Origin: a virus
DNA: 40,640 nucleotides
Direction: 5' to 3' (one strand)
IMG/VR virus record: IMGVR_UViG_3300021961_010363
Location: 1-40,640 of that record
In this document: in pieces, positions 2,302 to 16,938 of the stretch
How the letters are laid out: each line of letters begins with the position of its first letter
How positions within the stretch are numbered: position 1 is the first letter of the stretch
Position numbers and translations under genes: made by a program
Notes under the pieces: model-generated
What the model was told of the DNA's origin: nothing
Seen by the model: only the letters and a program-made list of their open reading frames with translations
Databases searched by the model: none

Positions 2302-4110
2302 TCAGAAAAAATATTTGAGGGACACAGAAATTGTTCTTCCTGGTTGACTGTATCCATATGGCCTTTGGAAATTCAAATCTGTAACATTTTCTATTGCAGT
2401 CTTAATGATTAAATCATCTTTGATCAAATAGTTTGCTCCTATGTTAGTGAAGTGCTGATGGTTCCTATCTACTATGGCGTAACTTGTTGGGTGAATATCT
2501 CTGTGTTCTCCATAATACTGCCAGTCATACCACAAATTTAGTTTATCGTTTACTTGATGATCCACTCCTATGTTTGCCTGCCACCATGGGCGTCTTGTCA
2601 TTTGTGTGTCTGTGGAATCTTGTGCAGAGACATACATCAATCCTATTTTCAATGATGAATCGTCCACTTGTGTCCTGCTTGAAAAATCCCATCCATTTAT
2701 TTTGGTCTTGCCATCAGTGTCATTGGTGTATGTTGAATTGGCGTAGTTGATTTGATCTGTGATTTCGGTAGAGAAGAACATGCTTTTGCTTTCAAAAGTG
2801 TACCATTTATCCTGTGTGTATGTTTTGATACCTATCTCGTATGTTACTGATTTTTCTTCTTTAAGATTGGGATTTCCTGTGTATCCAAAATTGTCCGCAC
2901 CATACATCTCGTACAGCGTCGGTGCTTTGAATCCTGTGCTGGTTCCTGCAACAAGAGTCATCACATCGTTTAACTTATATCCGGATCCGAGCCTATATGT
3001 GGTCACAGGATTGTGCAGGCTGTTCCAGTCCTTCCTCACTCCGCCATTGATAATAAATTTGTTCTTTTCCCAATCAGCATTAATGAAAGTCGCATAATTT
3101 TCCGCATCTTTGTCAACAGACGAATTGTATGATCCTCTGTTTTGGAACTGTGCAGAGTAAAACTGTAAGTCCGTGCCGATGGTGTAATCCACTGTCCCCA
3201 CTTTGTCTGTGTAACTGATCACAGAGTGTTTGTTCTGGCTGTCGTAGTCATCAATTTCGGAACCGTTGATGTATTGACGATCATGCGAGTTGTAATCGAT
3301 CACAGCATTCCAGTTGTTGCCTTCGTATCTCAATTGATAAAAATAAAACTTTGCGTCTCCGGTGTAGTCAGAGTCGTCCACGCCACTACCGTCCAGTTCG
3401 GTCTCCGAATTCCTGTACACTATGGTCGACTTCAGCAAACCGCTGTTCAACCAATGTTCGGAGTCAAAGTTGATCGTTTGATAAGAATACCCATCATCGT
3501 CACCGTCCTTGACAACAGAGTAACCGTCGGATTGATCTTGTGTGGCCTTGATCGAATAGTTGCCCGACCCGTTGGCAAAACCTTTGTGAACATCTACCGC
3601 GCGGGTGTTGTTGGAACCATAGGTGACTGTTGCTTGGTCCACGAATGTAGGACTTGTGTTGATGTTGACTGCACCTCCTATGGCGCCCGATCCGAAAAAT
3701 GTGCTCTGTGATCCTTTGTAAATGTCAATGCCTGTCGAATATTCTACGGGATCATTGCCCGCATCGAACAATCCGTTGGTGGTGGAATGATCGGTTATGG
3801 GTGATCCGTTTATCATGAAAAGCGTGTGATTAGAATCGGTACCTCTGGTGAACACCGATGTCTGTTGTCCCTTACCACCCGAGCGTATGGATGTGATGGA
3901 TGAATTAGTGTTTAATAGATCACCTATCACAACCGAGTTGTTATTGTTTTTGGGGAAAACTGTGTCCACGTTCACAGTGTAGGTGCTGAGTCCTGTCGGA
4001 TACAGGAAATAGATCGGTATGGTTATTTCAAGCTCGGCTTTGGCCGAAAAAGGAAATATAACCGCCAGCCAGATGATTAAGATTTTTATAATTAGGTGTT
4101 TGTATAGCAT
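2302..4110 (-). CDS. TonB-dependent outer-membrane receptor, BtuB-like
   Basis: The 602-residue product starts with a signal peptide (IIKILIIWLAVIFPFSAKA). A TonB-box-like VDTVFP follows near residue 48. The plug domain comes next (residues about 58-155), with GDLLNTNSSI, IRSGGKGQQTSVFTRGT, LFMINGSPITD and GAIGGAVNI, all characteristic of TonB-dependent receptors. The rest is beta-barrel, rich in aromatic and Asp/Asn turns, and ends in the outer-membrane signature SLKYFF. The length and plug sequence are closest to BtuB-type cobalamin receptors, though siderophore or other ligands cannot be excluded. It overlaps the DUF6580-like gene by 83 bases. A full-length receptor in a T4-like phage is rare and suggests it is made to feed the infected cell or to alter surface recognition. 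Confidence 0.88.
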   Translation of the reverse strand: MLYKHLIIKILIIWLAVIFPFSAKAELEITIPIYFLYPTGLSTYTVNVDTVFPKNNNNSVVIGDLLNTNSSITSIRSGGKGQQTSVFTRGTDSNHTLFMINGSPITDHSTTNGLFDAGNDPVEYSTGIDIYKGSQSTFFGSGAIGGAVNINTSPTFVDQATVTYGSNNTRAVDVHKGFANGSGNYSIKATQDQSDGYSVVKDGDDDGYSYQTINFDSEHWLNSGLLKSTIVYRNSETELDGSGVDDSDYTGDAKFYFYQLRYEGNNWNAVIDYNSHDRQYINGSEIDDYDSQNKHSVISYTDKVGTVDYTIGTDLQFYSAQFQNRGSYNSSVDKDAENYATFINADWEKNKFIINGGVRKDWNSLHNPVTTYRLGSGYKLNDVMTLVAGTSTGFKAPTLYEMYGADNFGYTGNPNLKEEKSVTYEIGIKTYTQDKWYTFESKSMFFSTEITDQINYANSTYTNDTDGKTKINGWDFSSRTQVDDSSLKIGLMYVSAQDSTDTQMTRRPWWQANIGVDHQVNDKLNLWYDWQYYGEHRDIHPTSYAIVDRNHQHFTNIGANYLIKDDLIIKTAIENVTDLNFQRPYGYSQPGRTISVSLKYFF

Positions 4111-4513
4111 GTTTTAATATTATATAGAATAATATCGTGCTTGTCAATGTGTTGGTAAAAAACGGAATAGCCATGACATAACAGTTGATGAGTCCTTGCA
4201 GATCATAACCATACCAACCACTGGTCCATACACCAAAGTTAGTAATCAAGAAAAATATCACGCTGGAAACAATCGGTCCACGTCCGAAGTAGGCAATTAA
4301 AAATAGAGAACCATACACCCAAGCCATGAAACTGTGCCAACCTAATATCATGTCTGTGAACATGTACACCAATAACGCCGGCAACAGAGTATAGTGTCCC
4401 CCCAAACTGAAGATGGCCAACACAGGAGTGAAATTAGGAGGATGTGGTAAAAATCGTGACACCAAGATGAGGAATAAAAGGAAAATCTGTATGTGATTGA
4501 TTTTGTTCAGCAT
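4028..4513 (-). CDS. DUF6580-like integral membrane protein, possible vitamin/ECF-type transporter subunit
   Basis: The 161-residue product has about five hydrophobic segments. It carries RFLPHPPNFTPVLAIFSLGG near the N-terminus, the hallmark of the DUF6580 family as I remember it. DUF6580 proteins are small membrane proteins suspected of being transporter subunits; the function is not established. It is the first gene of the leftward operon and overlaps the TonB receptor, so the pair could form an outer plus inner membrane uptake route, for example for cobalamin or a related compound. The start codon lies 6 bases after a TACAAT -10 box, so the message may be leaderless. Family call is good; the transport role is inference. 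Confidence 0.7.
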   Translation of the reverse strand: MLNKINHIQIFLLFLILVSRFLPHPPNFTPVLAIFSLGGHYTLLPALLVYMFTDMILGWHSFMAWVYGSLFLIAYFGRGPIVSSVIFFLITNFGVWTSGWYGYDLQGLINCYVMAIPFFTNTLTSTILFYIILKHAIQTPNYKNLNHLAGGYISFFGQSRA

Positions 4514-4553: not shown

Positions 4554-4582
4554 TTGACAGACGACTCCTAAAATTGTATATT
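4554..4582 (+). promoter_or_regulatory. Sigma70-type promoter for the oxygenase operon
   Basis: The plus strand reads TTGACA (4554-4559), a 17-base spacer, then TATATT (4577-4582). The first start codon is at 4596, leaving a leader of about 6 bases and no room for a normal ribosome binding site. The -35 boxes of this and the divergent promoter are only 5 bases apart, so the two arms may be co-regulated or compete for polymerase. Confidence 0.75.
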
Positions 4583-4595
4583 ATAAGTACCGATT

Positions 4596-5210
4596 ATGTA
4601 CAGCGATCTTTTATCTTTTGGCGACGTCATCAAACTCGATTACTACGTCGAATGCCATAAGCTATTAGAGGAAATAGAACCGTTCGAATGGCTGAGATAC
4701 AACCCAAGGAAACCCATTCCAAGGCATGGACTGAGCGTTACCAGTCTCAATGGAACCAGAGATGGCATAGATTTAGATTCGTTGTATGAGTACAACAAGG
4801 AAAACAACACGAATTACACAGAGCTCGATTTCAAGACCAAAACCGATGTCTATCATGCGAGCGAGGAAACAAGAAAGGCAGTAGAACCGTTCGACGCCGA
4901 AATTTCACGCACCCATTTTTTGAAATTGGATGCTGGTGGATATTTTCCCGCCCACCGCGATTGGAGACATTTGGAACAGCAGACAAGTTTCCGAGTTTTA
5001 GTTCCTATAAAGAACTGCAATCCCCAAGACATGTACTTCATATATGATGGAAAAATACTAAATTTCCAGCACGGTTTTCCTTATTTTGTGAACACAAACA
5101 AGGAACACTGTCTGTTTTCGCTCTCAGGAAATAGTATTATGTTGGTACTTAATGTAGAGTGCAATTCAAAAACGTTAAATACAGTTATAGGAAGGATGGC
5201 ATCAAGATGA
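4596..5210 (+). CDS. 2OG/Fe(II) oxygenase, Asp/Asn beta-hydroxylase-like (operon gene 1)
   Basis: The 204-residue product has H120-x-D122 in GGYFPAHRDWR and distal H171 in NTNKEHCLFSL, followed by a strand IMLVLNV as in aspartyl/asparaginyl beta-hydroxylases. R133 (SFRVLVP) lies on the next strand. It is predicted to be a soluble non-haem iron oxygenase. It is the first gene of the rightward operon, starting 13 bases after the -10 box. Its TGA overlaps the ATG of the desaturase (ATGA at 5207-5210). The substrate could be a free amino acid, a peptide or a lipid head group; nothing in the sequence decides this. Confidence 0.75.
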   Translation: MYSDLLSFGDVIKLDYYVECHKLLEEIEPFEWLRYNPRKPIPRHGLSVTSLNGTRDGIDLDSLYEYNKENNTNYTELDFKTKTDVYHASEETRKAVEPFDAEISRTHFLKLDAGGYFPAHRDWRHLEQQTSFRVLVPIKNCNPQDMYFIYDGKILNFQHGFPYFVNTNKEHCLFSLSGNSIMLVLNVECNSKTLNTVIGRMASR

Positions 5211-5881
5211 CAACATGGTTTATAGTAATATTATGTGGAATAGTATGGTCTCAGATAATTTCTCACTGGGGAGCATCTATCCTACTTCACAGACATTACT
5301 GTCACAAGCAATTTAGAGTACCCGGATGGTTTGAAACCATTGGGTTGGCCATGCTGATGATCGCTTGTATCAGAACACCGATAGGTTGGATAGCATCACA
5401 CAGGATGCATCATGTCCATTCGGATACAGAACATGATCCCCATTCTCCTAAGTTTGTAGGCTTTTGGAAAGTGCTTTCAACGACATGGGAAATTCCAAAC
5501 ATACCTCCAAGATACGCAAGAGACTTGTACAAGAATCCTAAGCTTGTTTTTTGTCATAATCACTGGGGTAAAATTTTAATCGGAGCCAATGTTATCAGCT
5601 TTCTAATACATCCATACTTTTGGGTGGCATTTTGTGTTGTTCCTTTCATATTTGCAAAAATAGGTTTTGGACTTTTGAACACAGTGGGCCATTCCAAAGG
5701 ACCAAGCAATGTGCCTTGGCTCAATCTGTTTATCGCTGGTGAAGGATATCATAAAAATCATCACGAGAATTTCAGAAGAGTAAGATTACACAAATGGGAC
5801 ACGGGTGGATGGATAGCAGAAAAATTTTTCAAAAACTATGGACAAAAAAGAGACACTTCTAAGTCAGTCGTTAGCAGTTAG
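5207..5881 (+). CDS. Membrane fatty-acid (acyl-CoA/acyl-lipid) desaturase
   Basis: The 224-residue product has the three histidine boxes of the membrane desaturase family: HRHYCH (about residue 28), HRMHH (about 67) and HKNHH (about 183), which bind a di-iron centre. Two long hydrophobic hairpins flank the boxes. The pattern is that of delta-9 type acyl-CoA or acyl-lipid desaturases. It is shorter than bacterial DesC/Ole1-type enzymes (about 260-300) because the C-terminal tail is cut short. It would introduce a double bond into an acyl chain in the inner membrane. The ATG at 5207, preceded by AGGAAGG, is chosen over an earlier one inside the oxygenase gene. It overlaps the next gene by 44 bases. 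Confidence 0.88.
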   Translation: MTTWFIVILCGIVWSQIISHWGASILLHRHYCHKQFRVPGWFETIGLAMLMIACIRTPIGWIASHRMHHVHSDTEHDPHSPKFVGFWKVLSTTWEIPNIPPRYARDLYKNPKLVFCHNHWGKILIGANVISFLIHPYFWVAFCVVPFIFAKIGFGLLNTVGHSKGPSNVPWLNLFIAGEGYHKNHHENFRRVRLHKWDTGGWIAEKFFKNYGQKRDTSKSVVSS

Positions 5882-6623
5882 AACTTTTCCACTCAACGAA
5901 GTCAAACAGCTGTGTGATAATTTTTCTATCGAACATCATCATGAAGTTGCAAAACCAAAATCTAATATAGTCGATTGGCTCGCGCCGATGGTGGACCTTT
6001 CAGAATTTAAACATTTCTATCCGGCCAACGGAGTCACGGAAGGTTTGAACTATTGGATGATGCAGGAATCGAGATCGATTCAAGTCAAGGACGGAGAGTA
6101 TGCCTGGGTGGAGGGCAAGCAAGAAGGTGATGTTCATTACATCAGTTGTCCCAGTTCAGTTGACGGAAATTTTTGCGAAATCCCCACAGACAAACCAGTG
6201 GTTTTAGATTTGGCATATATTGGCTCCACTAAGATCGGCAAGTTAGATATACCAAAGAACGTAGAAAAAGTTTTCTTTTCATTGAGCAAAAGTTTCGGAT
6301 TAAGAAACTATAGGATAGGTTATTACTGGTCAAGAAGAGCCGATCCTATGTTGGAAAAATTGATCTACTCTGCAAAGTATTACAACTATTATTCATTCGC
6401 ATTGGGTGAAAAAATAATAGACCAATTCCCCATTGATTTCGTGCATGGCAAATTAGGCCATATTCAGCGAGACCTTTGCAAAGAATTGGACCTAAATCCC
6501 AGCGATTCATTATGGTTGGCAACCACTACAGATCAAGCATATAATAAGTTTAAGCGAGGAGACACGAATCGTGTTTGTTTAAGCGGTTTGATAGAAAAAG
6601 CATATTATGATAAATCCATTTAG
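5838..6623 (+). CDS. Short PLP-dependent aminotransferase-like protein (fold type I)
   Basis: The 261-residue product has key features of class I/II aminotransferases in order: NGVTEG at 64-69 (phosphate-binding turn), VVLDLAYIGS at 121-130 (D124 for the pyridine nitrogen, Y127), and SLSKSFGLRNYRIGYY with K151 as the likely Schiff-base lysine and R159 nearby. Normal members have 350-400 residues. The C-terminal small domain with the substrate carboxylate arginine appears much reduced. It may transaminate, racemise or decarboxylate an amino compound, or be a binding protein. It overlaps the desaturase by 44 bases and the TauD-like gene by 17, showing tight coupling. The family call is firm; activity is unproven. 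Confidence 0.8.
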   Translation: MDKKETLLSQSLAVRTFPLNEVKQLCDNFSIEHHHEVAKPKSNIVDWLAPMVDLSEFKHFYPANGVTEGLNYWMMQESRSIQVKDGEYAWVEGKQEGDVHYISCPSSVDGNFCEIPTDKPVVLDLAYIGSTKIGKLDIPKNVEKVFFSLSKSFGLRNYRIGYYWSRRADPMLEKLIYSAKYYNYYSFALGEKIIDQFPIDFVHGKLGHIQRDLCKELDLNPSDSLWLATTTDQAYNKFKRGDTNRVCLSGLIEKAYYDKSI

Positions 6624-7431
6624 ATCGATTGAGTCTATAGTAGGACTTTCTGATACACAGTTATTAGATTTGGCCAATACAATACACAAAGAAGGCGTAG
6701 CGGTTTTTTATGATCAAAATTTAACTATGTCCGACCTTGTAGAAGTTTGTAAAAAATTCGGCGAGTGCGAAACCCCCAATCTTTTCATGAATCCCAAGGA
6801 GCATCCAGAAATTTCTTTGGTGACAGGAAAACGCAAGGATGACGGTCAAAAAATAGGAATGTTTGGAGACACGGAATTGGGCTGGCATTCGAACGGAAAC
6901 TCGAGGCACTTGATTGATAAAATTCTCATAAGTTTGTATTGCGTTGAGGAAGACATCAACACCACCCTGAGCGTGTGTCACACTTCCAAACCTTTTTATG
7001 ACATGAGCCAAGATGAACAGGAGTATTGGAAGTCCATCAAAATAAGGTTAAAATTTGTTAACAACACAGTGTACAGTCTTGAAGAAGGTGACCCTGAACT
7101 GGAATTCATGAGCAAGCACAAAGGAAGCATCAGGAAGTTGGTCGATCAACACCCGCACACTGGAGATTTTTATTTCTATTTTCCATATCACTTCATAATC
7201 GGAGCCTGGGAAGGATCTAAAAAAATTGATCATACAGAATTAGTAAACAAATTGATGCCCAAAATATTCCAATCCAGATATCAGTATCATCATATATTCA
7301 AAAAAGGAGATCTGTTGTTGATGGATCAGTTTACAAGTTTACACAGACGCACTCCGGTAATGGACAAGGAAAGATTGTTATGGAGAGTGGCCAGCGATTT
7401 CAAAAGGATACATGATGAACAAAAATCTTGA
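6607..7431 (+). CDS. TauD/TfdA-like 2OG/Fe(II) dioxygenase with HxN in place of HxD
   Basis: The 274-residue product has the TauD/TfdA length and layout: N-terminal region GVAVFYDQNLT, metal motif LGWHSNGNSR (H94-S-N96), distal H246 in SLHRRTPV and R260 in LLWRVASDF for 2OG. The usual acidic ligand (HxD or HxE) is an asparagine here. In iron halogenases the same position is Gly or Ala, so a changed metal sphere can mean a new reaction, but Asn might also still bind iron. Neighbouring oxygenases keep HxD, so this is specific to this gene. It overlaps the PLP gene and the prolyl-hydroxylase-like gene. Small-molecule substrates are usual for the family. Confidence 0.8.
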   Translation: MINPFRSIESIVGLSDTQLLDLANTIHKEGVAVFYDQNLTMSDLVEVCKKFGECETPNLFMNPKEHPEISLVTGKRKDDGQKIGMFGDTELGWHSNGNSRHLIDKILISLYCVEEDINTTLSVCHTSKPFYDMSQDEQEYWKSIKIRLKFVNNTVYSLEEGDPELEFMSKHKGSIRKLVDQHPHTGDFYFYFPYHFIIGAWEGSKKIDHTELVNKLMPKIFQSRYQYHHIFKKGDLLLMDQFTSLHRRTPVMDKERLLWRVASDFKRIHDEQKS

Positions 7432-7993
7432 AAGATATCTGTACAGAGCTCAGTTCATAACACCCCAGAAGGCGGACGAGGTCAGGAATGTTTTAGACAC
7501 AGAAACAACTTGGGTGAACTTTGACTACAAAGGACCTGAGAATATCTGTGTGCAGGATAATCCTCAGATTCCATACCATGTCACCGAATTGGGTCTTGAA
7601 CATCAGATGACAAAATATTTAGAAACTCAAATTGACCGTGTTGTGGATGATTACATACACAACTATCTACAAGATATCACTTGGTTCACTTATTGGAATG
7701 GCAAGACACGATTCTATTATATTAGATATCCAACCGGGTCTGATGGAATGGGAACCCATGCGGATCACGTGAGGAACATATTCGACGGAACCAGGAGGGG
7801 AATTCCAACTCTGACTGTGCTTGGATCATTGAGTGACGAGTACGAAGGAGGAGATATTGTGTTTTGGCAAGACACACCCAAAAGATTGAAAAAAGGTGAA
7901 GTTTTTATCTTTCCTTCTATTTTCCTTTATCCGCATGAAGTAACTCCTATCACCCAGGGCACACGATACTCATTCGCTGTTTGGATATGGTAG
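7412..7993 (+). CDS. Prolyl 4-hydroxylase-like 2OG/Fe(II) oxygenase
   Basis: The 193-residue product has the P4H alpha-subunit pattern: YYIRYPTGSDGMGTHADHV with H116-x-D118, the strand LTVLGSLSDEYEGGDIVFW, then FPSIFLYPHEVTPITQGTRYSFAVWIW with distal H175 and R185. This is the standard small PKHD-type 2OG/Fe(II) oxygenase known in many T4-like marine phages. It would hydroxylate a protein side chain or a small molecule. ATG at 7412 or 7415 both fit. It overlaps the TauD-like gene by 20 bases and the methyltransferase by 7. It is the clearest oxygenase in the cluster. Confidence 0.88.
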   Translation: MMNKNLERYLYRAQFITPQKADEVRNVLDTETTWVNFDYKGPENICVQDNPQIPYHVTELGLEHQMTKYLETQIDRVVDDYIHNYLQDITWFTYWNGKTRFYYIRYPTGSDGMGTHADHVRNIFDGTRRGIPTLTVLGSLSDEYEGGDIVFWQDTPKRLKKGEVFIFPSIFLYPHEVTPITQGTRYSFAVWIW

Positions 7994-8631
7994 ACAAGAA
8001 CATTCCATGGCCCACGATAAATGACCAAACCTCTGAGTTTGTGAATGTGCCTCTTATAGAAAATTACAAATTCAAGGACATGTGGTACCTTGACACAGAG
8101 CAAGCCAAACCTTTGTTCGAAAAACAAGCAGACATCATCATACAAAAACAGTGCAAGGGAATAGTAGATGTGGGGTGCAGACACGGCCCCGTAAATGCTA
8201 TACTGCACGAAAAGGGTTACACAGATTACAGATACATGGGATTTGACACATCAGTCGAGCCCATAGAGTTGGCCAAACAACAATGGATACAGTTTCCAAA
8301 CATAGAATATAGGAATGTGTCATGGAATGACAAATCTAAAATCACAGTGGACTTTGATGTTGATCAAGTCATATGGAGTGGTGTTTTGATATACCAGCCG
8401 GACGAGCACCATCAAGTTTTCCATGATATCACTGTTGATTTATATAAAAGTAAAAATGCAATCATAGCTGAAGTATATCATGATCAGAAATACAAGGAAG
8501 ACAGGCTCCTATTAAATACCATTACACACGAAATGGATCAATACTCGCAGAGATACTCACAGGTTGATCAAACTCTTTTGGATTGTGAAATATTTTCCGG
8601 AAGGAGACTTGTCCTTGACATTACGATATAG
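7987..8631 (+). CDS. Class I SAM-dependent methyltransferase
   Basis: The 214-residue product has motif I GIVDVGCRHGPVNAIL near residue 60, with the expected glycine-rich SAM loop (VGCRHG, slightly changed from GxGxG). Motif II acidic end follows as YMGFDTSVEPIELAKQQW, and motif IV as VDQVIWSGVLIYQPDEH. It is a soluble Rossmann methyltransferase. The C-terminal part shows no target-recognition domain, so a small-molecule substrate is more likely than DNA. The ATG at 7987 is chosen over a TTG at 7981. It overlaps the upstream stop by 7 bases. It probably modifies the same product as the neighbouring oxygenases; this is inference. Confidence 0.75.
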   Translation: MVDKNIPWPTINDQTSEFVNVPLIENYKFKDMWYLDTEQAKPLFEKQADIIIQKQCKGIVDVGCRHGPVNAILHEKGYTDYRYMGFDTSVEPIELAKQQWIQFPNIEYRNVSWNDKSKITVDFDVDQVIWSGVLIYQPDEHHQVFHDITVDLYKSKNAIIAEVYHDQKYKEDRLLLNTITHEMDQYSQRYSQVDQTLLDCEIFSGRRLVLDITI

Positions 8632-8677
8632 AATAGAAAAAAGAAAAGTTGACGTCAGCAAGCGGAAGTATGTCAAC

Positions 8678-9394
8678 ATGGACCCTCACAACGATCGACC
8701 AGATTACGATCATCTCCAAATCCATGATCAATATGTTGGTTACAAAGACGCATTCTACACTCCGATCGATATGCCTAAGATTGATGTCGATCTCGATCAT
8801 ATAGAATCACTTTGGTCAGACCCAAGCATGGAAAAAGGAACAACTGCCGGCACCATCGCTGTGGGCAAAGTTTTGTTTTTAAAAATGAACATGTTCACAT
8901 ATGTGGATGGCAACCCGCCTTGGTATGCATGGGCAAAAAGTGAAATACCGCACATATGTGATTTCATCGACCAACTGCCTTTCAAATCTATAAGACAGTG
9001 TGCGTTTGTGCAACCACCCGACGTTACACCGCCACACTATGATGAGCCATTGACTATGACTCCACATCTCAGAGATAGTGCTCCGTCACAATACAGGATA
9101 AGGTGGAGCAAAGTTACAGACAAAGATAATGAGATATTTTACATGAGCAAGGATTCCGGAGCAACCAAAATTTACCCTGTGCTACCAGATGAAACCAACA
9201 CATACGTTTATGATGGTTCTGTGTGGGAACATGGCACTGATCGTGGATTTAAAATGAGCGAAAGAGCATTAATTGTCATGTCGGGGATACTGGATATCCC
9301 AAGGCATCATGCTCTGTTAGAAAAATCTATGGACAAATACAAGGATTATGTTTTGTATGACAAAGAATTCGAACATACCATATCTCAAAGTTAA
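8678..9394 (+). CDS. 2OG/Fe(II) oxygenase-like protein
   Basis: The 238-residue product (from ATG at 8678) has H120-x-D122 in VTPPHYDEPLTM, distal H185 in SVWEHGTDRGF and R196 in SERALIVMSG. This spacing fits double-stranded beta-helix oxygenases of the Asp/Asn hydroxylase type. The PPHYDEP motif resembles the PxHxD entry of that family. An open frame continues upstream to 8564 inside the methyltransferase gene, but the added residues look like shadow sequence. GGAAG lies about 10 bases before the ATG at 8678, so the shorter form is preferred. This is the only place with a gap inside the first half of the operon (46 bases). Confidence 0.7.
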   Translation: MDPHNDRPDYDHLQIHDQYVGYKDAFYTPIDMPKIDVDLDHIESLWSDPSMEKGTTAGTIAVGKVLFLKMNMFTYVDGNPPWYAWAKSEIPHICDFIDQLPFKSIRQCAFVQPPDVTPPHYDEPLTMTPHLRDSAPSQYRIRWSKVTDKDNEIFYMSKDSGATKIYPVLPDETNTYVYDGSVWEHGTDRGFKMSERALIVMSGILDIPRHHALLEKSMDKYKDYVLYDKEFEHTISQS

Positions 9395-10073
9395 TCTCAC
9401 AGTTCCGGTTTTAGATATTTGCGATGAAGCAAGTCATTTGCTTGAAAACAGAATGTATGAGCCTCATAGATCGGATGATGGTCGTGGTTGGAACGTGTTT
9501 ACTCTTTATGGTGAGGGAGAGTACATAACGATTGGCGGCAATTGGGGAGATCCTGCAAAATATCATTGGACTGACCTTGCAAAAAAGCACTGTCCAAAAA
9601 CTATCGAGTGGTTACAAAGTTTGCCATACACAGAAATTTATAGAGCAAGATTTATGTTTTTGGAGCCGGATGGACACATCAAGATACATCACGACAAAGA
9701 ACCCAACGAGATTTTAGGACACACAGTCGTCGACGATGCCATGAACATAGCAATCAAACATCCGCAAGGCTGTTACATGAGGCAGGTGTACAAGGATCAT
9801 TACAATGAAGTACCTTTTGAAAATGGCGCCGCATTTTTCTTCAACAATAGATACTTCCATTATGTACACAATAACAGCAATGAAACAAGGATCCATATGA
9901 TCATCCATGCAAAATGGTTGCCCTTAAACACTGAATACACTAAAATCAAATTGTTAGAAAAGAATTATTTAGATCACGACGAATTCGCATATTCGAACAA
10001 CCCATGGAACAACAAGGAAGCATTAGATGAAAAAATCTCAGCATATACACCAGACCTGTCTTATTGTTGTTGA
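9348..10073 (+). CDS. 2OG/Fe(II) oxygenase, Asp/Asn beta-hydroxylase-like
   Basis: The product is up to 241 residues. It shows RARFMFLEPDGHIKIHHDKEP with H114-x-D116 (or adjacent H115), then distal H171/H174 in YFHYVHNNSNETRIHMIIHAKW and R181. The FLEPDGHIKxHxD pattern is typical of Asp/Asn beta-hydroxylase relatives. A segment WGDPAKYHWTDLAKKHCPKT lies before the core. Starts at 9348 or 9357 are both possible; AAGGA at the end of the previous gene is 11 bases from the second. It overlaps both neighbours by 46-47 bases. The residues after the core (about 195-241) have no counterpart in the other oxygenases. Confidence 0.78.
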   Translation: MFCMTKNSNIPYLKVNLTVPVLDICDEASHLLENRMYEPHRSDDGRGWNVFTLYGEGEYITIGGNWGDPAKYHWTDLAKKHCPKTIEWLQSLPYTEIYRARFMFLEPDGHIKIHHDKEPNEILGHTVVDDAMNIAIKHPQGCYMRQVYKDHYNEVPFENGAAFFFNNRYFHYVHNNSNETRIHMIIHAKWLPLNTEYTKIKLLEKNYLDHDEFAYSNNPWNNKEALDEKISAYTPDLSYCC

Positions 10074-11265
10074 AAACTTAAACCAACAAGGAGACCATTT
10101 CGAAATCGGTGCTTGCCAAAATTATACCAGCAGTATGATTTATGAACTCCAAACCAAAGTTCCGGAGATGGCCATATACACTGTTGCTTCATATGATGAG
10201 GCCATGACCCATTTTGATAAGCACAAATATGTTTTCGTTTCTTCGATCGGAAATTACATAGAGTGGTACAACTTCAGTTACATCATTGACAGGATGGCCC
10301 AAGAAAATCTTGCATTGGTTGGACACATATTACACAAGCGTGGATATTATGAAATACATGATCAAGTTTTTGTGATTGATTCAGAAAAATGGAAGCAGGC
10401 CGGCAGTCCGCACATTAGAAAATCCGTCAAAGACAAAGCATGTGCTATTGAGAGAGATCCCGGAAACATTCACCACGATTACACACCAAAGTGGATCAAG
10501 GCGGATCAGAATTCACTTGCACAACCTTACAATATTCCTGTGGATGGCATGTTCCTTGGTTCTCAATTGATATCGGAGTTCGCCCATCAAAAACTGAACA
10601 TGTCTGCATTCAACAGCCTTGAAAGAAAACACAAGTATTATCTATATGGAGGGACAGAATGGTTTTATCCGGCTCTGTTCATGACAGAAAGTTATGCATT
10701 TTGTAACGAACCTTTAGAGAAGATGGCGGATGAAATGCCCACTGATGTTGAACAGTACTTTGGCATAGCCAGTCCCTACTATATATTGGCACTGTCATAC
10801 AAAAATCCCCAATGCAAGGATTGGCAAATCTTTGACAACAGCCACATACAATTATTATATTGCAAATGGGTATTAGAAAAATTGCCAACATTCGGATATG
10901 ATGTCAAACACACACTTTCCGCATTTCTGAGAGAATATCCTTGGATCAAATCTAAAGATTTTGAAGCCATCGACACAAACCCATATTTGGAAAAAATTAT
11001 CAATTACATTCAACGCATGGTCAAACCCTACGACTTGGGTAGCGTGAATTATATAGAACAAAATATATGGGTGGATCAAGAAATTAATATTTTAAACAAG
11101 CCGACCTTGGCCTACACGTCAAACGTTTTTAGATACCAGCCCGCTAGCAAATGGATGCCACTGTCAAAACAAAAACAAGCAGAAATAAAATTTTTAAATA
11201 TTTTAAAAAGCAATCCCAATGTTCATACCATTGTGAATGATATGAAAACAGAAAGGATCAAATGA
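10027..11265 (+). CDS. Large unknown protein, 412 residues, possibly glycosyltransferase-like
   Basis: I do not recognise this family with confidence. The product starts QTCLIVVENLNQQGDHFEIG and looks like an alpha/beta N-terminal domain (IYTVASYDEAMTHF, KYVFVSSIGNYIEWYNF). The segment LVGHILHKRGYYEIHDQVFVID resembles patterns in some glycosyltransferase-like proteins, as does LYGGTEWFYPALF later. No DxD motif is clear. There is no signal peptide or membrane segment. It is the largest gene of the operon, with ATG preceded by GGAAG, overlapping the oxygenase upstream by 47 bases and the SGNH gene downstream through ATGA. Its central place suggests it builds or carries the scaffold that the others modify, but this is a guess. 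Confidence 0.6.
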   Translation: MKKSQHIHQTCLIVVENLNQQGDHFEIGACQNYTSSMIYELQTKVPEMAIYTVASYDEAMTHFDKHKYVFVSSIGNYIEWYNFSYIIDRMAQENLALVGHILHKRGYYEIHDQVFVIDSEKWKQAGSPHIRKSVKDKACAIERDPGNIHHDYTPKWIKADQNSLAQPYNIPVDGMFLGSQLISEFAHQKLNMSAFNSLERKHKYYLYGGTEWFYPALFMTESYAFCNEPLEKMADEMPTDVEQYFGIASPYYILALSYKNPQCKDWQIFDNSHIQLLYCKWVLEKLPTFGYDVKHTLSAFLREYPWIKSKDFEAIDTNPYLEKIINYIQRMVKPYDLGSVNYIEQNIWVDQEINILNKPTLAYTSNVFRYQPASKWMPLSKQKQAEIKFLNILKSNPNVHTIVNDMKTERIK

Positions 11266-12080
11266 TGCAAATACACTGTTTTGGAGATTCTAATGTATGG
11301 GGAGATGAGCAACCAAACTGCACTATAGGTGTAGATTCACAACCCAGCAAGACTACTTTTCCTTATTACCTTGCAAAAAAGTTCAACATCGAGACTGTGA
11401 ACAATCATGCTGTGTCGGGAGGATCTTTGCAGTTGGTTTGTGACAGTGTGCTTTTTAATTTTTTACCTAAGAAATTTCCGTTGGATGACATCATCATTGT
11501 CTATCTACCCAACTGCTCTAAATATTCGTTTGTGACAAATGATAGAAAAGAATATAATAAAATCCGGGATATCATAAGATATCGATTAAGATCATGTGTG
11601 TATGATAATGATCTTAAGAAGGACACGGTCGAATGGATGATGCGACACATGTGGCATGAACAAGCATTGTATTACAACGTCATCAAGCATGTTACAACCA
11701 TCGATGTGTTCCTTAAAGACTATAAAAATGTTTTCTATTTTTGGAACACAAGACATCATCACAGTAATTTTAGAAAAGGCCAAGACGGGTTGGATTCTGA
11801 ATTAAATTTTAGGAATGCTTGGTTCCCCACTGACGATCTTGCAGAACCGTTCATAGGAAATAGCGTTTTTGACAGCGATATTATAGAACATCATGATCCA
11901 TTATTCGAAAACATAGCCAAACGCACAGTTGATTGGGATATTTTATCAGTATTCGATAGGATAAGCGACCAATTAAATGTACATAAATACAAACAGAAGC
12001 ATCATGCACCACAGGTTCATGAGCATTATGTTGATACATTTTTGTATGAACATATTAAGGAGAAAATGAATGTCGATTGA
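11262..12080 (+). CDS. SGNH/GDSL-like hydrolase
   Basis: The 272-residue product starts MMQIHCFGDSNVWGDE, where FGDSNVWG is block I of SGNH hydrolases with S10 as nucleophile. NNHAVSGGSLQ fits block II (Gly) and IIIVYLPNCSKY fits block III (Asn). A late His in HAPQVHEHYVDTF fits block V. Such enzymes act as esterases or O-acetyl hydrolases/transferases on glycans and lipids. There is no signal peptide, so it acts in the cytoplasm. It is coupled to the unknown 412-residue gene by ATGA and overlaps the next oxygenase by 11 bases. It might remove or add an acyl group on the pathway product. Confidence 0.68.
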   Translation: MMQIHCFGDSNVWGDEQPNCTIGVDSQPSKTTFPYYLAKKFNIETVNNHAVSGGSLQLVCDSVLFNFLPKKFPLDDIIIVYLPNCSKYSFVTNDRKEYNKIRDIIRYRLRSCVYDNDLKKDTVEWMMRHMWHEQALYYNVIKHVTTIDVFLKDYKNVFYFWNTRHHHSNFRKGQDGLDSELNFRNAWFPTDDLAEPFIGNSVFDSDIIEHHDPLFENIAKRTVDWDILSVFDRISDQLNVHKYKQKHHAPQVHEHYVDTFLYEHIKEKMNVD

Positions 12081-12666
12081 AAGTCCTATTGTTAACGATT
12101 ATGTGATCGAGTTACCACAACTTATAGATTTATTGCCGACTCCGGCAGAAGTACTCGCAATGAAATCTGCCAAGGTTGATGTGGTTGATCCGGAATACAC
12201 TTCTGCATGGGATGGCCAAAGATGGTATTTGATCACCGACAACTCAAAAAGCGAAACGGTCATCAGCAAGTTTAATTCTGCACACATGACAGCTTATCCT
12301 GAAGTATGGTTAGTAGAAAAGGAAGCAGACAAATGGGTACGCCCACACATCGACACAGACAGATTGGTTGTTTTAATTTACCCAATTGTTCCTTCATCTT
12401 ACGATATCCAATTCACCGATAAATGGGAAGGCGACAACAATTTCTTTTTCAGATCATATGAGAACACAACTCCATATGAGTATAATGTTTTGCACACCCA
12501 TACCTACACGTGTCCTACTCTTTTGAACAGTAAAATTCCACATTGTCTACCATCCACGGCTGCCAAAACAACTTTCCAAATTTCCTTGTATTTTGGTTAC
12601 GATGATTGTTCTGACTGGGCAGGGATAGTCAACACTTACAACAGCGGTGGGTTGATCACACTTTAA
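12070..12666 (+). CDS. 2OG/Fe(II) oxygenase-like, tandem paralogue A
   Basis: The 198-residue product has H93-x-D95 in KWVRPHIDTDRLVVLIYP and distal H158 in NSKIPHCLPSTAAKTTFQISLYF. It pairs with the next gene: both begin YVIELPQL/FVIELPQL and share the order PHxD, THTYTCPT or EHTYVCPT, then PHC or LHC and FQIS. They arose by tandem duplication. The usual 2OG-binding Arg after the distal His is a Lys in this copy, whereas the next copy has Arg. AAGGAG is about 7 bases before the ATG. The protein is a soluble cytoplasmic oxygenase of unknown substrate. Confidence 0.72.
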   Translation: MSIESPIVNDYVIELPQLIDLLPTPAEVLAMKSAKVDVVDPEYTSAWDGQRWYLITDNSKSETVISKFNSAHMTAYPEVWLVEKEADKWVRPHIDTDRLVVLIYPIVPSSYDIQFTDKWEGDNNFFFRSYENTTPYEYNVLHTHTYTCPTLLNSKIPHCLPSTAAKTTFQISLYFGYDDCSDWAGIVNTYNSGGLITL

Positions 12667-12673
12667 TTTTTCT

Positions 12674-13192
12674 ATGTACAATGATTTTGTCATAGAACTG
12701 CCCCAACTTTCAAATTTATATGACGAACAAAAGCTTTGGCAAGCCTGTCAGTCCAACCCCAGCCATGACAACAAAAATTATGGAGTGAAATGTTGGGAAG
12801 TGCCTTGCGATCAACCAGAAGTCAAACACATCTTTGATTTGATCAATCAGGACATCATGACTCAACCATTGATTGGTTGGTTGATGTACAAGTACAAAGA
12901 TGAGTGGCTGAAACCCCACGTCGATGTTGGCAGAGATGCGATATTGATGTTCCCCATACAGCCGAAAAATTACACCATATCTTTTTTAGACAACAAAGAA
13001 GACATGAATACGATATACGAACACACATATGTCTGTCCTACCATCGTGAATTCCAATGTTTTGCACTGTGTGTACGACAAGGGAATAGAAAGAAAATTCT
13101 TTCAGATAAGTTTCTCTTTTGACAATTGCACCTGGGATGATGTTATAAAATATGTTTACGATGGAAAATTATTACATAAAACTCTACAGTGA
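12674..13192 (+). CDS. 2OG/Fe(II) oxygenase-like, tandem paralogue B
   Basis: The 172-residue product has H82-x-D84 in WLKPHVDVGRDAILMFP, distal H131 in NSNVLHCVYDKGIERKFFQISFSF and R140 as the likely 2OG ligand. It is shorter than its upstream paralogue, mainly around the strand before EHTYVCPT. It starts 8 bases after the paralogue's stop. No good ribosome binding site is visible, so translation may depend on re-initiation. It overlaps the GNAT gene at its 3' end. Confidence 0.72.
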   Translation: MYNDFVIELPQLSNLYDEQKLWQACQSNPSHDNKNYGVKCWEVPCDQPEVKHIFDLINQDIMTQPLIGWLMYKYKDEWLKPHVDVGRDAILMFPIQPKNYTISFLDNKEDMNTIYEHTYVCPTIVNSNVLHCVYDKGIERKFFQISFSFDNCTWDDVIKYVYDGKLLHKTLQ

Positions 13193-13754
13193 TAACCCAG
13201 AAGCACATCGCTCCCTGATTGAAGACTTCAGACAAAAAACATTTGATGAAGGAAGCACCAGCCTATCTCATAAGAAATACAACTGTGATGACCCCAACAT
13301 AGAAACATGGATGTTCTTTGTGGACGATAAACTGGCATCCATCAGTGCCGCGGAAAAGTCACACTACACAAATGATCCTGATATTGCTGTTAGGGTTTGC
13401 AGATATCACATCCTAAAACCATATAGATTCTCTCATGCTGGTTTGATCATGGGCGAGAAACAAGTGCAGTGGGCAAGACAAAAAGGATTCCAAATACTTT
13501 ACATCACTCATGACATAACCAATAGGGCAATAAATCGTCTGTACCAAAGGAAGCGTAAAATGACCGTGCCGACATTTCATCGACACACAAACAGTGAATG
13601 GTACACTTCGTTAGAGGTTGAAAAGGATTTTCTGTTCAAGACGGGTGATCTTTTGCAGTACGTTTACAGCATAAGACTTCAGGACAGTGGTTTCGAGTGG
13701 CGTCCAGAGTCATCATACATACTTTACCAAAAACACGACGGTGAAATTTATTAG
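13152..13754 (+). CDS. GNAT-family acetyltransferase-like protein
   Basis: The product is about 200 residues. The segment GLIMGEKQVQWARQKGFQILYITHDITNRAINRLYQRKRKM fits GNAT motifs A and B: an acetyl-CoA-binding turn followed by a helix, the fourth strand, and the late Asn-x-x-A-x-x-L-Y region. The N-terminal half (ETWMFFVDDKLASISAAEKS) fits the early strands. The strict QxxGxG/A loop is degenerate, so acetyl-CoA binding is likely but not certain. A start at 13161 (MENYYIKL) is equally possible. It is the last gene of the operon and ends at the tRNA-Arg inverted repeat. It probably acylates an amine. Confidence 0.65.
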   Translation: MFTMENYYIKLYSDNPEAHRSLIEDFRQKTFDEGSTSLSHKKYNCDDPNIETWMFFVDDKLASISAAEKSHYTNDPDIAVRVCRYHILKPYRFSHAGLIMGEKQVQWARQKGFQILYITHDITNRAINRLYQRKRKMTVPTFHRHTNSEWYTSLEVEKDFLFKTGDLLQYVYSIRLQDSGFEWRPESSYILYQKHDGEIY

Positions 13755-13845
13755 TGATTGGTGGGCCTTAAAGGATTCGAACCTTTGGCCTTATCTTCCG
13801 CAAAGATACGCTCTGTCCAACTGAGCTAAAGGCCCACCAATCACT
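13753..13845. repeat. 17-bp perfect inverted repeat enclosing tRNA-Arg
   Basis: The 17-mer agtgattggtgggcctt at 13753-13769 is repeated as its exact reverse complement at 13829-13845. The inner 7 bp are the tRNA acceptor stem. The outer 10 bp extend it past the 3' CCA on one side and into the 5' leader on the other. In the precursor the leader would pair with A73, CCA and trailer. It lies at the convergent end of the oxygenase operon, overlapping the GNAT stop codon. Confidence 0.8.
13759..13835 (-). tRNA. tRNA-Arg (GCG)
   Basis: This is a complete 77-nt tRNA: acceptor GGGCCTT/AAGGCCC, D stem GCTC/GAGC, anticodon stem TATCT/AGATA with loop TTGCGGA giving GCG, T arm AAAGG/CCTTT, A73 and encoded CCA. 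A20 in the D loop and C35 agree with Arg identity. Bacteria normally read CGN with ACG (inosine), so a GCG anticodon is uncommon. Confidence 0.92.
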
Positions 13846-13852
13846 GGAACGC

Positions 13853-13942
13853 TGGCGGAAGGACTGGGATTCGAACCCAGGAAGGAGTTGCCCCCTTGTC
13901 GGTTTTCAAGACCGGTGCTTTCAACCACTCAGCCATCCTTCC
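13853..13942 (-). tRNA. tRNA-Ser (TGA)
   Basis: This is a complete 90-nt class II tRNA with acceptor GGAAGGA/TCCTTCC, loop CTTGAAA giving anticodon TGA, a long variable arm, T loop TTCGAAT, G73 and an encoded CCA. It lies 17 bases upstream of tRNA-Arg and is probably cotranscribed with it. Confidence 0.95.
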
Positions 13943-14532: not shown

Positions 14533-14608
14533 TGGTGGAGGATAGCGGGATCGAACCGCTGACCTCCTGAATGCAAATCAGGCGCTCTCCCAGCTGAGCT
14601 AATCCCCC
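14533..14608 (-). tRNA. tRNA-Ala (TGC)
   Basis: This is a complete 76-nt tRNA: acceptor GGGGGAT/ATCCTCC with the Ala-type G3-U70 pair, anticodon stem CCTGA/TCAGG with loop TTTGCAT giving TGC, A73 and an encoded CCA. It is 5 bases downstream of tRNA-Thr. Confidence 0.95.
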
Positions 14609-14613
14609 AACGT

Positions 14614-14689
<76 letters not shown>

Positions 14690-14806: not shown

Positions 14807-15418
14807 TTATTTTAGTTTTTTTGCGATTGCTTTAAGCAACACACCATATGCTGGTAGGAACACAATTAATCCCACCACAATCTTTGTGAGCGTATTGTTG
14901 AACGCCACTGGTCCCACCCATGGTTGCGGATAAAACGCTGTGTAAAAGAAAGTGTAGGTGTCAATGATGTTGGCCACGATGGTTGATAGTGCTGGTGCAG
15001 CCCACCATGCTTCTGTCCATCGTTCTCTGATGTGCTGGAACACATACACGTCAAGCATTGTGCCCACTGCGTAAGCAGTACCTGATGCGATACCCACTCT
15101 GTATGCGTGTTCGTCACCGAGTGCTAACAGCACTAACACTGAAGCCACGATGGCTGGAATGATGGCAAGTGCCACGACAGCTCTGCCGGCCTGCTTGCCA
15201 ACCAATCTAACTGTCAAGTCGGTCGCTACTACGACAATCGGAAATGTGAACGCCGCCGCAGCTAATGGAAATTCTCCGAACAACGGAAGATCCGCTCCTG
15301 GAAACAGATTAAATCTGATCGTAACAAGATAATTCGACACCGCAATAACCAGCGTGTGTAAAATTACTAAGTTTCTCACAAGTGTCTTATCAACACCTGA
15401 TAACAATTTACTAAACAT
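14807..15418 (-). CDS. yhhQ: Queuosine-precursor transporter, YhhQ/VUT family
   Basis: The 203-residue product has about six hydrophobic segments and the family hallmark SNYLVTIRFNLFP...FGEFPLAAAAFTFPIVVVATDLTVRLVG, where the FP-x8-D-x4-R region is conserved in VUT (former DUF165) proteins. NIIDTYTFFYTAF is the second conserved block. These inner-membrane proteins import preQ0/preQ1, precursors of queuosine in tRNA or of 7-deazaguanine bases in DNA. In phages the genes often go with base-modified genomes, but no DNA transglycosylase or preQ0 synthesis gene is in this window. AGAGGAG precedes the ATG. It has its own weak promoter upstream and a GC hairpin downstream. Confidence 0.85.
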   Translation of the reverse strand: MFSKLLSGVDKTLVRNLVILHTLVIAVSNYLVTIRFNLFPGADLPLFGEFPLAAAAFTFPIVVVATDLTVRLVGKQAGRAVVALAIIPAIVASVLVLLALGDEHAYRVGIASGTAYAVGTMLDVYVFQHIRERWTEAWWAAPALSTIVANIIDTYTFFYTAFYPQPWVGPVAFNNTLTKIVVGLIVFLPAYGVLLKAIAKKLK

Positions 15419-16176: not shown

Positions 16177-16311
16177 TGTCTGTCCTTTTTTATTGTGTTT
16201 AAGTCAATACTAATTTATGACAGAAAAATCATAAAATACAGTGTTAATACAATGGGTCAGTTGTGCAAAAAAAACACTGTTGGTTGTGCATGACGGATAA
16301 TTATTTTGCAC
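16177..16311. other. Divergent intergenic region, AT-rich
   Basis: The region separates the small-protein chain (minus) from the sulfotransferase (plus). It must hold both promoters but I see no clear pair of -35/-10 boxes on either strand. An octamer gttgtgca occurs twice (near 16259 and 16283). No tRNA, hairpin terminator or gene is visible. Confidence 0.5.
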
Positions 16312-16938
16312 ATGGCATATAGAATCAAGGACAAACTCACATTCATCCATCTTCCAAAGAACGCTGGCACATCAATCAGCCGATGGATAGAACAAAATAC
16401 CAATTATCAATATGATGGTCAGAGGCACCAACACATTTCTGCTTTACCATTGGATTGGCAAGACAATGTTTTTTGTGTGGTAAGGAACCCTTATCAACGA
16501 GCGGTATCTTGGTATTACTTTGTCCAACAGATGCTGGATAAAAAAACCAAAAGAAAAACTAATTTGTCTTTTATAGAACCACAGTTAGAAATTTTATCAG
16601 AAGGTTTTGAACAGTTTGTATCGGTTTACTTTAACTATGTGTTCAGCAAAAGCAAATTCAGGAACGCTTCTCATGTCATGACCCTTAAAAGTATTGCCCA
16701 ATCAAATTTTGTTGGCGATGACTTCAAAGGTATTGCAATTAGATATGAAAACATACACAAGGATTGGAAAATTATCCAGGAGATTGTTGGTTGTCATGTG
16801 CCTTTACCTGTGACTAACATCACAAATTATGGCAACACATTTAGATGGAAAAAACTGTACAATGAAAATTCATACAGGGCAGTGTCGAGATTGTTTGAGA
16901 AAGATATCAAACAATTTGGCTATTCCTTTACAGATTAG
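16312..16938 (+). CDS. Sulfotransferase-family protein
   Basis: The 208-residue product starts MAYRIKDKLTFIHLPKNAGTSISRW. LPKNAGTS at 14-21 is the PAPS 5'-phosphosulfate loop and FCVVRNPYQRAVSWYYF (about 53-69) is the 3'-phosphate-binding RNP...S motif of the sulfotransferase family 2. It would transfer sulfate from PAPS to a carbohydrate-like or small acceptor. The ATG at 16312 is used instead of a TTG two codons upstream. It is the only plus-strand gene between 13754 and 34310 and is convergent with uvsY, overlapping it by 11 bases. It may modify the host envelope. Confidence 0.82.
   Translation: MAYRIKDKLTFIHLPKNAGTSISRWIEQNTNYQYDGQRHQHISALPLDWQDNVFCVVRNPYQRAVSWYYFVQQMLDKKTKRKTNLSFIEPQLEILSEGFEQFVSVYFNYVFSKSKFRNASHVMTLKSIAQSNFVGDDFKGIAIRYENIHKDWKIIQEIVGCHVPLPVTNITNYGNTFRWKKLYNENSYRAVSRLFEKDIKQFGYSFTD

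Follow-up and report, generated by a model that had tools for sequence, protein, structure and literature searches.

The record IMGVR_UViG_3300021961_010363 (IMG/VR) of a marine bacterial virus, analysed over its full 40,640 nucleotides and called the window here, contains 13 open reading frames (ORFs), A to M, that all lie on the + strand between positions 4596 and 13754. Part of this operon recurs as a linked unit in other viruses. This core consists of B, C, D and F, the GNAT gene M and an AspH-like oxygenase gene; A, E, G, H, I, J, K and L are variable. We put at about one half the probability that the operon represents a mobile, phage-borne biosynthetic (tailoring) cassette that makes one oxidised, methylated and probably N-acylated product. 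That one joint product exists at all is probable, because the core is linked, its catalytic residues are complete (desaturase ligands, pyridoxal phosphate (PLP) residues and oxygenase motifs), it is under purifying selection and parts of it occur in bacteria. The original prediction for this DNA, made from the letters alone, was of one early-expressed pathway encoded by all 13 genes. On the evidence below, a joint pathway can be upheld for the core, but not for the 13 genes as one unit, eight of them being variable.

Linkage of the core across viruses

The core genes with a letter of their own in the window are:

5207 to 5881, + strand: B, membrane acyl-lipid or acyl-CoA desaturase-like protein of 224 amino acids (Pfam FA_desaturase, 1.3e-9)
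5838 to 6623, + strand: C, mini fold-type-I PLP aminotransferase of 261 amino acids (K151, D124, N111, R159, R245)
6607 to 7431, + strand: D, TauD/TfdA-family oxygenase with H94-S-N96...H246 (Pfam TauD, 5.7e-22)
7987 to 8631, + strand: F, class I S-adenosylmethionine (SAM) methyltransferase of 214 amino acids (profile match)
13152 to 13754, + strand: M, GNAT acetyl- or acyltransferase (Acetyltransf_1 in relatives)

Linkage was scored over a distance of 8 kb on 22 viral contigs that had been found through D alone and that extended at least 4 kb to each side of it. B, C, F and the AspH-like gene lay within 8 kb of D in 22/22 of these contigs, a GNAT gene or f12 was present in 21/22, G in 14/22 and a flavin mononucleotide (FMN) reductase gene in 8/22. 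With B as the bait, D was found in 27/29, C in 23/29 and F in 21/29. Scattered or single occurrence in related phages, which the original prediction had named as the outcome that would speak against a joint pathway, was therefore not what was seen for the core, and the search of other viral contigs that it had proposed found the core recurring in several phage backgrounds. Dozens of other viruses carry the core as a unit. The recurring order, also seen in the Pelagibacter phage Mosig, is A-B-C-(FMN reductase-peroxiredoxin-f8)-D-F-M-AspH, and many versions of the cassette add the FMN reductase, the peroxiredoxin and more oxygenases. The f12 gene of relatives may replace M, an equivalence proposed from a local motif and from its occurrence in place of M. 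It had no Pfam match, and its hhalign comparison with M was not significant, so f12 was called by motif only.

The window itself is a 40.6-kb piece of a myovirus, with genes for uvsX, a single-stranded DNA (ssDNA)-binding protein, terminase, tail tube and sheath, and its terminase matches that of the Pseudomonas jumbo phage PA5oct at 55%. The structural genes around the cassette vary, being PA5oct-like in the window and in L062-L065 (terminase up to 58% identical), Mosig-like in others, and of further groups again. In the close relative L002, D belongs to a different clade from the D of the window; single genes have therefore been exchanged while the set was kept.

Mosig EXVC030M (MT647606) is a cultured SAR11 phage, and carries the same core in the same relative order (Mosig_00072-00081), which makes the core directly testable. 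Identity to the window is 79% for the desaturase, 56% for the aminotransferase and 73% for the TauD protein, and an AspH gene, a methylase, a GNAT and a second AspH gene are also present. The Mosig cassette is without E, G, H, I, J, K and L and has the FMN reductase and peroxiredoxin. Its core has been annotated singly, gene by gene, as putative enzymes.

Against close relatives, the ratio of nonsynonymous to synonymous substitution (dN/dS) was ~0.01-0.07 for most operon genes, with dS near saturation. The value for G, obtained from 5 aligned codons, was disregarded as an artefact, and that for M against L003 covers just 42 codons. Judged by these ratios, most operon genes are under purifying selection.

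Bacterial copies were sought by scanning 84,980 species genomes with D, two short peptides being used as the query; since phyla beyond Bdellovibrionota were barely sampled in this way, a restriction to Bdellovibrionota was not concluded. The scan returned four hits, three of them Bdellovibrionota-type loci and the fourth probably a contig from a phage. Within Bdellovibrionota, D-like genes were present in 5/369 genomes, and because they are rare and scattered these copies were probably acquired. L098 adjoins aroA/aroB/aroC, L099 adjoins tuf, and L100 adjoins nrdA/nrdB and trpS, neighbours that identify all three as chromosomal. Over the stretches read, they hold parts, not the whole, of the gene set that the original prediction had proposed to look for in bacteria: three TauD genes, a PLP aminotransferase, a GNAT, two desaturases and radical SAM genes in L099; TauD, a methyltransferase, a flavoprotein and several AspH-like genes in L098; and two TauD genes with a desaturase in L100. 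The fourth hit, L097 (JABAAK010000084.1, binned as Candidatus Paceibacter), has a phage-type cassette and was left out of account because it is probably a phage contig in the wrong bin. As a separate observation, L099 and L109 belong to one Bdellovibrionota-type contig in which ~37 kb are taken up by genes for oxygenases, desaturases, TauD copies and GNATs, together with several radical SAM genes; among the last are genes of a KedN5-like B12 type, and of a twitch type with 61-66% identity to phage proteins.

The operon and its enzymes

The 13-gene, one-strand layout of the original prediction was reproduced, with overlap in 11 of the 12 adjacent pairs; the exception is K and L, which are 7 nt apart. 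Three starts were revised by comparison with relatives. B, listed as an ORF from GTG 5159, most likely starts at ATG 5207 in an ATGA overlap with A, F most likely at ATG 7987, and G likely at TTG 8615, preceded by AAGGAG at 8601. The sigma70-type promoter that had been pointed out also stood up: 13 nt separate it from the first ATG, and it is found at the same position in two close relatives. Sites with at least 11/12 matches number 8 in the window versus 1.4 (standard deviation 1.1) in dinucleotide shuffles, and several of the strong sites lie directly 5' of genes, including uvsX and the ssDNA-binding gene. The leader made from the operon promoter would be ~7 nt, into which a Shine-Dalgarno sequence would not fit. 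Early expression of the operon is plausible. The promoter, the variable genes and one further oxygenase gene, which is divergent and outside the operon, are:

4554 to 4582, + strand: operon promoter, TTGACA-17-TATATT (11/12 consensus matches, above shuffle expectation)
4596 to 5210, + strand: A, AspH-type Fe(II)/2-oxoglutarate (2OG) oxygenase of 204 amino acids (H120/D122/H171)
7412 to 7993, + strand: E, 2OG-FeII_Oxy_3 oxygenase (Pfam 9.2e-11)
8615 to 9394, + strand: G, probable 2OG oxygenase (HYD...H motif)
9348 to 10073, + strand: H, Asp_Arg_Hydrox (AspH-type) oxygenase (Pfam 1.8e-16; H114/D116/H171 invariant)
10027 to 11265, + strand: I, conserved protein of 412 amino acids (no family match)
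11262 to 12080, + strand: J, SGNH/GDSL-hydrolase-like protein (FGDSN; Pfam 0.052, below cut-off)
12070 to 12666, + strand: K, putative 2OG oxygenase (PHID...H motif alone)
12674 to 13192, + strand: L, putative 2OG oxygenase and K paralogue (PHVD...H motif alone)
1699 to 2289, - strand: eighth oxygenase, AspH-type (Asp_Arg_Hydrox 7.6e-11), conserved in the two closest relatives

Seven 2OG oxygenases with HxD/HxN...H triads had been predicted in the operon. Four of the seven candidates are firm by a family match in themselves or in relatives (A, D, E and H), G is likely, and K and L are candidates by motif only. D, E and H score above the Pfam cut-offs, and A matches Asp_Arg_Hydrox in 7/12 relatives (best 4.9e-8). 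The HxD...H triad is invariant in A (12 sequences), in E (H116/D118/H175/R185, 14 sequences), in G (H-x-D...H...R, 15 sequences), in H, and in K and L within their own family; D has H-S-N, an HxN motif, and not HxD. G had no Pfam match, nothing useful in the PDB search and no significant hhalign match to A, and matched H in part (E 2.5e-6 over 67 columns). For K and L, no relative outside their own family was detected in profile and PDB searches or by hhalign against A and H. Because these hhalign tests were not significant, K and L were called by motif only, and G by its motif and the one partial match. The 2OG domain of E is also matched by PHROG 3531 and 2297, labelled ferrochelatase and DNA endonuclease, which suggests that these labels are wrong.

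D is among the most conserved cassette proteins, with a mean column identity of 73% over 34 sequences (72% for B). W-H-S-N-G is its first motif in 34/34 aligned relatives, and in the wider family HxN is found in 105/107 sequences and HxD in two. More distant bacterial copies are mostly HxN, with H-S-A in L111. D matches the overall TauD profile but lacks the 2-His-1-carboxylate triad (HxD/E...H), and because HxN replaces HxD across the family we call it TauD-like and make no claim to a classical dioxygenase. To our knowledge, replacement of the carboxylate ligand by Asn has not been described in a characterised TauD enzyme, and the family offers a clean test of how such an enzyme works without that ligand.

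The other enzyme classes assigned to core genes in the original prediction, a di-iron desaturase, a PLP protein, a methyltransferase and a GNAT, were all recovered. In B, nine His and Asn158 are invariant (29/29 sequences), and we take these to correspond to the di-iron ligands of SCD1, which was also the PDB match (4zyo/4ymk). B has both marks of a membrane acyl desaturase, namely at least 8 His with Asn as di-iron ligands and the FA_desaturase profile. The AlphaFold2 (AF2) model of C (predicted local distance difference test (pLDDT) score 92.6) gave the tryptophan aminotransferase TAA1, HisC and alliinase as best Foldseek matches (E ~1e-8). N111, D124, K151, R159 and R245 are invariant across the aligned sequences, so that C combines the fold of a fold-type-I enzyme with its Schiff-base Lys, the Asp to the pyridine N and the Arg for the carboxylate. 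F belongs to class I by profile. Acetyltransf_1 was matched by M in 15/19 relatives at E up to 0.1 (best 9.7e-5; 0.022 for M of the window itself), and M is conserved in phages and in L099. J is present only in the two closest relatives, with GDSN and further blocks conserved in the 3 sequences. I matched nothing in the PDB and no family in Pfam, PHROG or NCBIfam at scores above threshold, and its AF2 model, built from a 5-sequence alignment, was not used (pLDDT 47.8). The operon matched no PADLOC or known anti-phage defence model.

Directly upstream on the other strand (2302-4513, -) are genes for a BtuB-like TonB-dependent receptor (TIGR01779 4.9e-52, below the equivalog cut-off) and a DUF6580 membrane protein, both of which the two closest relatives retain; they may serve in cobalamin uptake or in superinfection exclusion. 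B12-type radical SAM genes accompany some cassette relatives, which hints at a link of the cassette to cobalamin but does not establish it. Beyond the BtuB gene, close relatives carry a large glycan cluster (L115 1-19848, L116 1-12000) with a DegT aminotransferase, GDP-mannose dehydratase, FkbM, a DAHP/KDO-type synthase and glycosyltransferase-like genes. The window also encodes a queuosine-precursor (7-deazaguanine) transporter (14807-15418, -; TIGR00697 above cut-off) and a sulfotransferase-like protein (16306-16938, +; Sulfotransfer_2). Six tRNA genes (Phe, Glu, Arg, Ser, Ala, Thr) lie around the operon region in three pairs, at 1258-1440, 13759-13942 and 14533-14689 (-).

A possible pathway and its alternatives

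If the core acts as one pathway, C would transfer an amino group to or from a precursor that bears a carboxylate, and B would act at the membrane to dehydrogenate or hydroxylate an acyl or alkyl chain, possibly with electrons from the FMN reductase. D would carry out the signature oxidation, the AspH-like enzymes would add hydroxyls, F would methylate and M would acylate an amine. Together these steps would yield a single compound, highly oxidised, methylated and N-acylated, that derives from an amino acid or an acyl chain and is made in the infected cell. An acyl/amino-acid (lipid-like) nature of this product is a tentative reading, adopted because B is of the SCD/DesA lipid-desaturase kind, because C keeps the invariant C-terminal Arg R245, which should bind a carboxylate, and because the profiles closest to D are those of PtlD and ScoE, the latter acting on 3-[(carboxymethyl)amino] fatty acids. 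The compound would most likely be placed on or in the cell envelope or surface glycan, where it would exclude superinfection or improve the infected cell's fitness, with release less likely; use at the envelope is itself a doubtful proposition. It is consistent with the presence of a DegT aminotransferase, GDP-mannose dehydratase, FkbM and a DAHP/KDO-type synthase in the same genome region of the close relatives G563 and G564, and with the sugar and carbamoyl genes that adjoin the Mosig cassette.

Several observations weigh against a tailoring cassette of this kind. HxN could impair iron binding in D. D, F and C are remote from characterised enzymes (E 1e-4 to 1e-10, identity <20%), and because of this remoteness they are a weak guide to naming the substrate. 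Not every copy has glycan genes beside it; the neighbours of many are tail or other structural genes. The window was not found to encode a carrier protein, ligase or synthetase with which the scaffold could be built, and the full core was present in no bacterial copy over the stretches read.

The cassette could also make a sugar or sugar-amine decoration for the host lipopolysaccharide/O-antigen or for a phage glycan, with the desaturase and oxygenases acting on its acyl groups, much as lipids are hydroxylated by LpxO and OlsC. The glycan genes that close relatives have near the cassette, and that Mosig has next to it, would fit, and the glycosyltransferases of pelagimyophages have been argued to alter the host O-chain (PMC7029224). 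However, other copies have no nearby glycan genes, and C is TAA1/HisC-like and not of the DegT sugar-aminotransferase kind, which leaves this explanation rather unlikely.

Unlikely, and a little more so, is post-translational modification of phage proteins (tail fibres or other virion proteins) by hydroxylation, methylation and acetylation. The AspH family includes protein Asp/Asn hydroxylases, proteins can also be substrates of GNATs and methyltransferases, some copies have twitch-type radical SAM enzymes nearby, and in Mosig and its kin the cassette directly adjoins tail fibre and structural genes. The cassette of the window is not beside fibre genes, though, and the core contains a membrane lipid-type desaturase and an aminotransferase of the free-amino-acid type for which proteins offer no ready role, while bacterial chromosomes hold versions of the set without a phage particle.

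It is improbable that there is no joint pathway and that unrelated auxiliary genes have piled up in a hypervariable region. Such a history would account for the coming and going of A, E and G to L, and for gene exchange inside the cassette such as that of D in L002. For the core it is already contradicted by the linkage in 22/22 contigs across phage backgrounds, and core parts recur in bacteria. DNA hypermodification with the help of PLP, radical SAM and 2OG enzymes is known from phages, but shielding of the phage genome by modified nucleotides is the least probable explanation, as the operon showed no recognisable TET/JBP-type oxygenase and no thymidylate-kinase-like or glycosyl-DNA enzyme, and a membrane desaturase does not fit.

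A tailoring cassette with a single product remains our preferred reading. Its boldest form, which we regard as speculative, is that several aquatic phage lineages and rare Bdellovibrionota share a natural-product pathway in which a native-Asn TauD enzyme carries out a reaction new for its fold. If this were true, the virus-made product would be a new class of metabolite or membrane lipid.

Relation to known systems

Many virus-borne metabolic genes supply single steps of host pathways, and single phage 2OG oxygenases and desaturases are already known; Roitman et al. are said to have described lipid desaturases of cyanophages in 2018 (as cited in PMC11480375). The cassette would be a pathway of several enzymes that has no recognised counterpart in the host and that stays together in viral contigs of several backgrounds. 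It would also give some of the numerous 2OG oxygenases in marine phages a role. No description of the linked core as a pathway, Mosig included, was found in the open-access literature, where most subscription papers are missing. For freshwater pelagimyophages, a stearoyl-CoA desaturase and a 2OGFeDO protein have been mentioned, not linked together (PMC7029224).

Compared with the Delta-9 desaturases SCD1 and DesA, B matches the di-iron ligand set of SCD1 but has just 224 amino acids and is set in an oxygenase/aminotransferase cassette. C has the PLP residues and fold in common with HisC and TAA1, whereas the matched chains are of ~335-425 amino acids, against 261 for C, and identity is 9-17%. 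D aligns with ScoE over its full length and the distal His and C-terminal Arg residues are conserved; the D family has HxN instead of HxD, and identity is remote. A role for D as a ScoE isonitrile synthase was considered and rejected, since the NCBIfam score was 25.9 bits against a cut-off of 400 and the partner genes of the isonitrile lipopeptide pathway (ScoA-D; acyl carrier, ligase) were not recognised in the operon.

The tailoring of ornithine lipids and lipid A draws on similar enzymes, namely an AspH oxygenase, a GNAT, a methyltransferase and a membrane oxidase. There, OlsC and LpxO belong to the AspH family, OlsB is a GNAT and OlsG is a methyltransferase. The two systems are likened here by enzyme kinds only, and the phage set differs in adding an aminotransferase and the HxN TauD enzyme.

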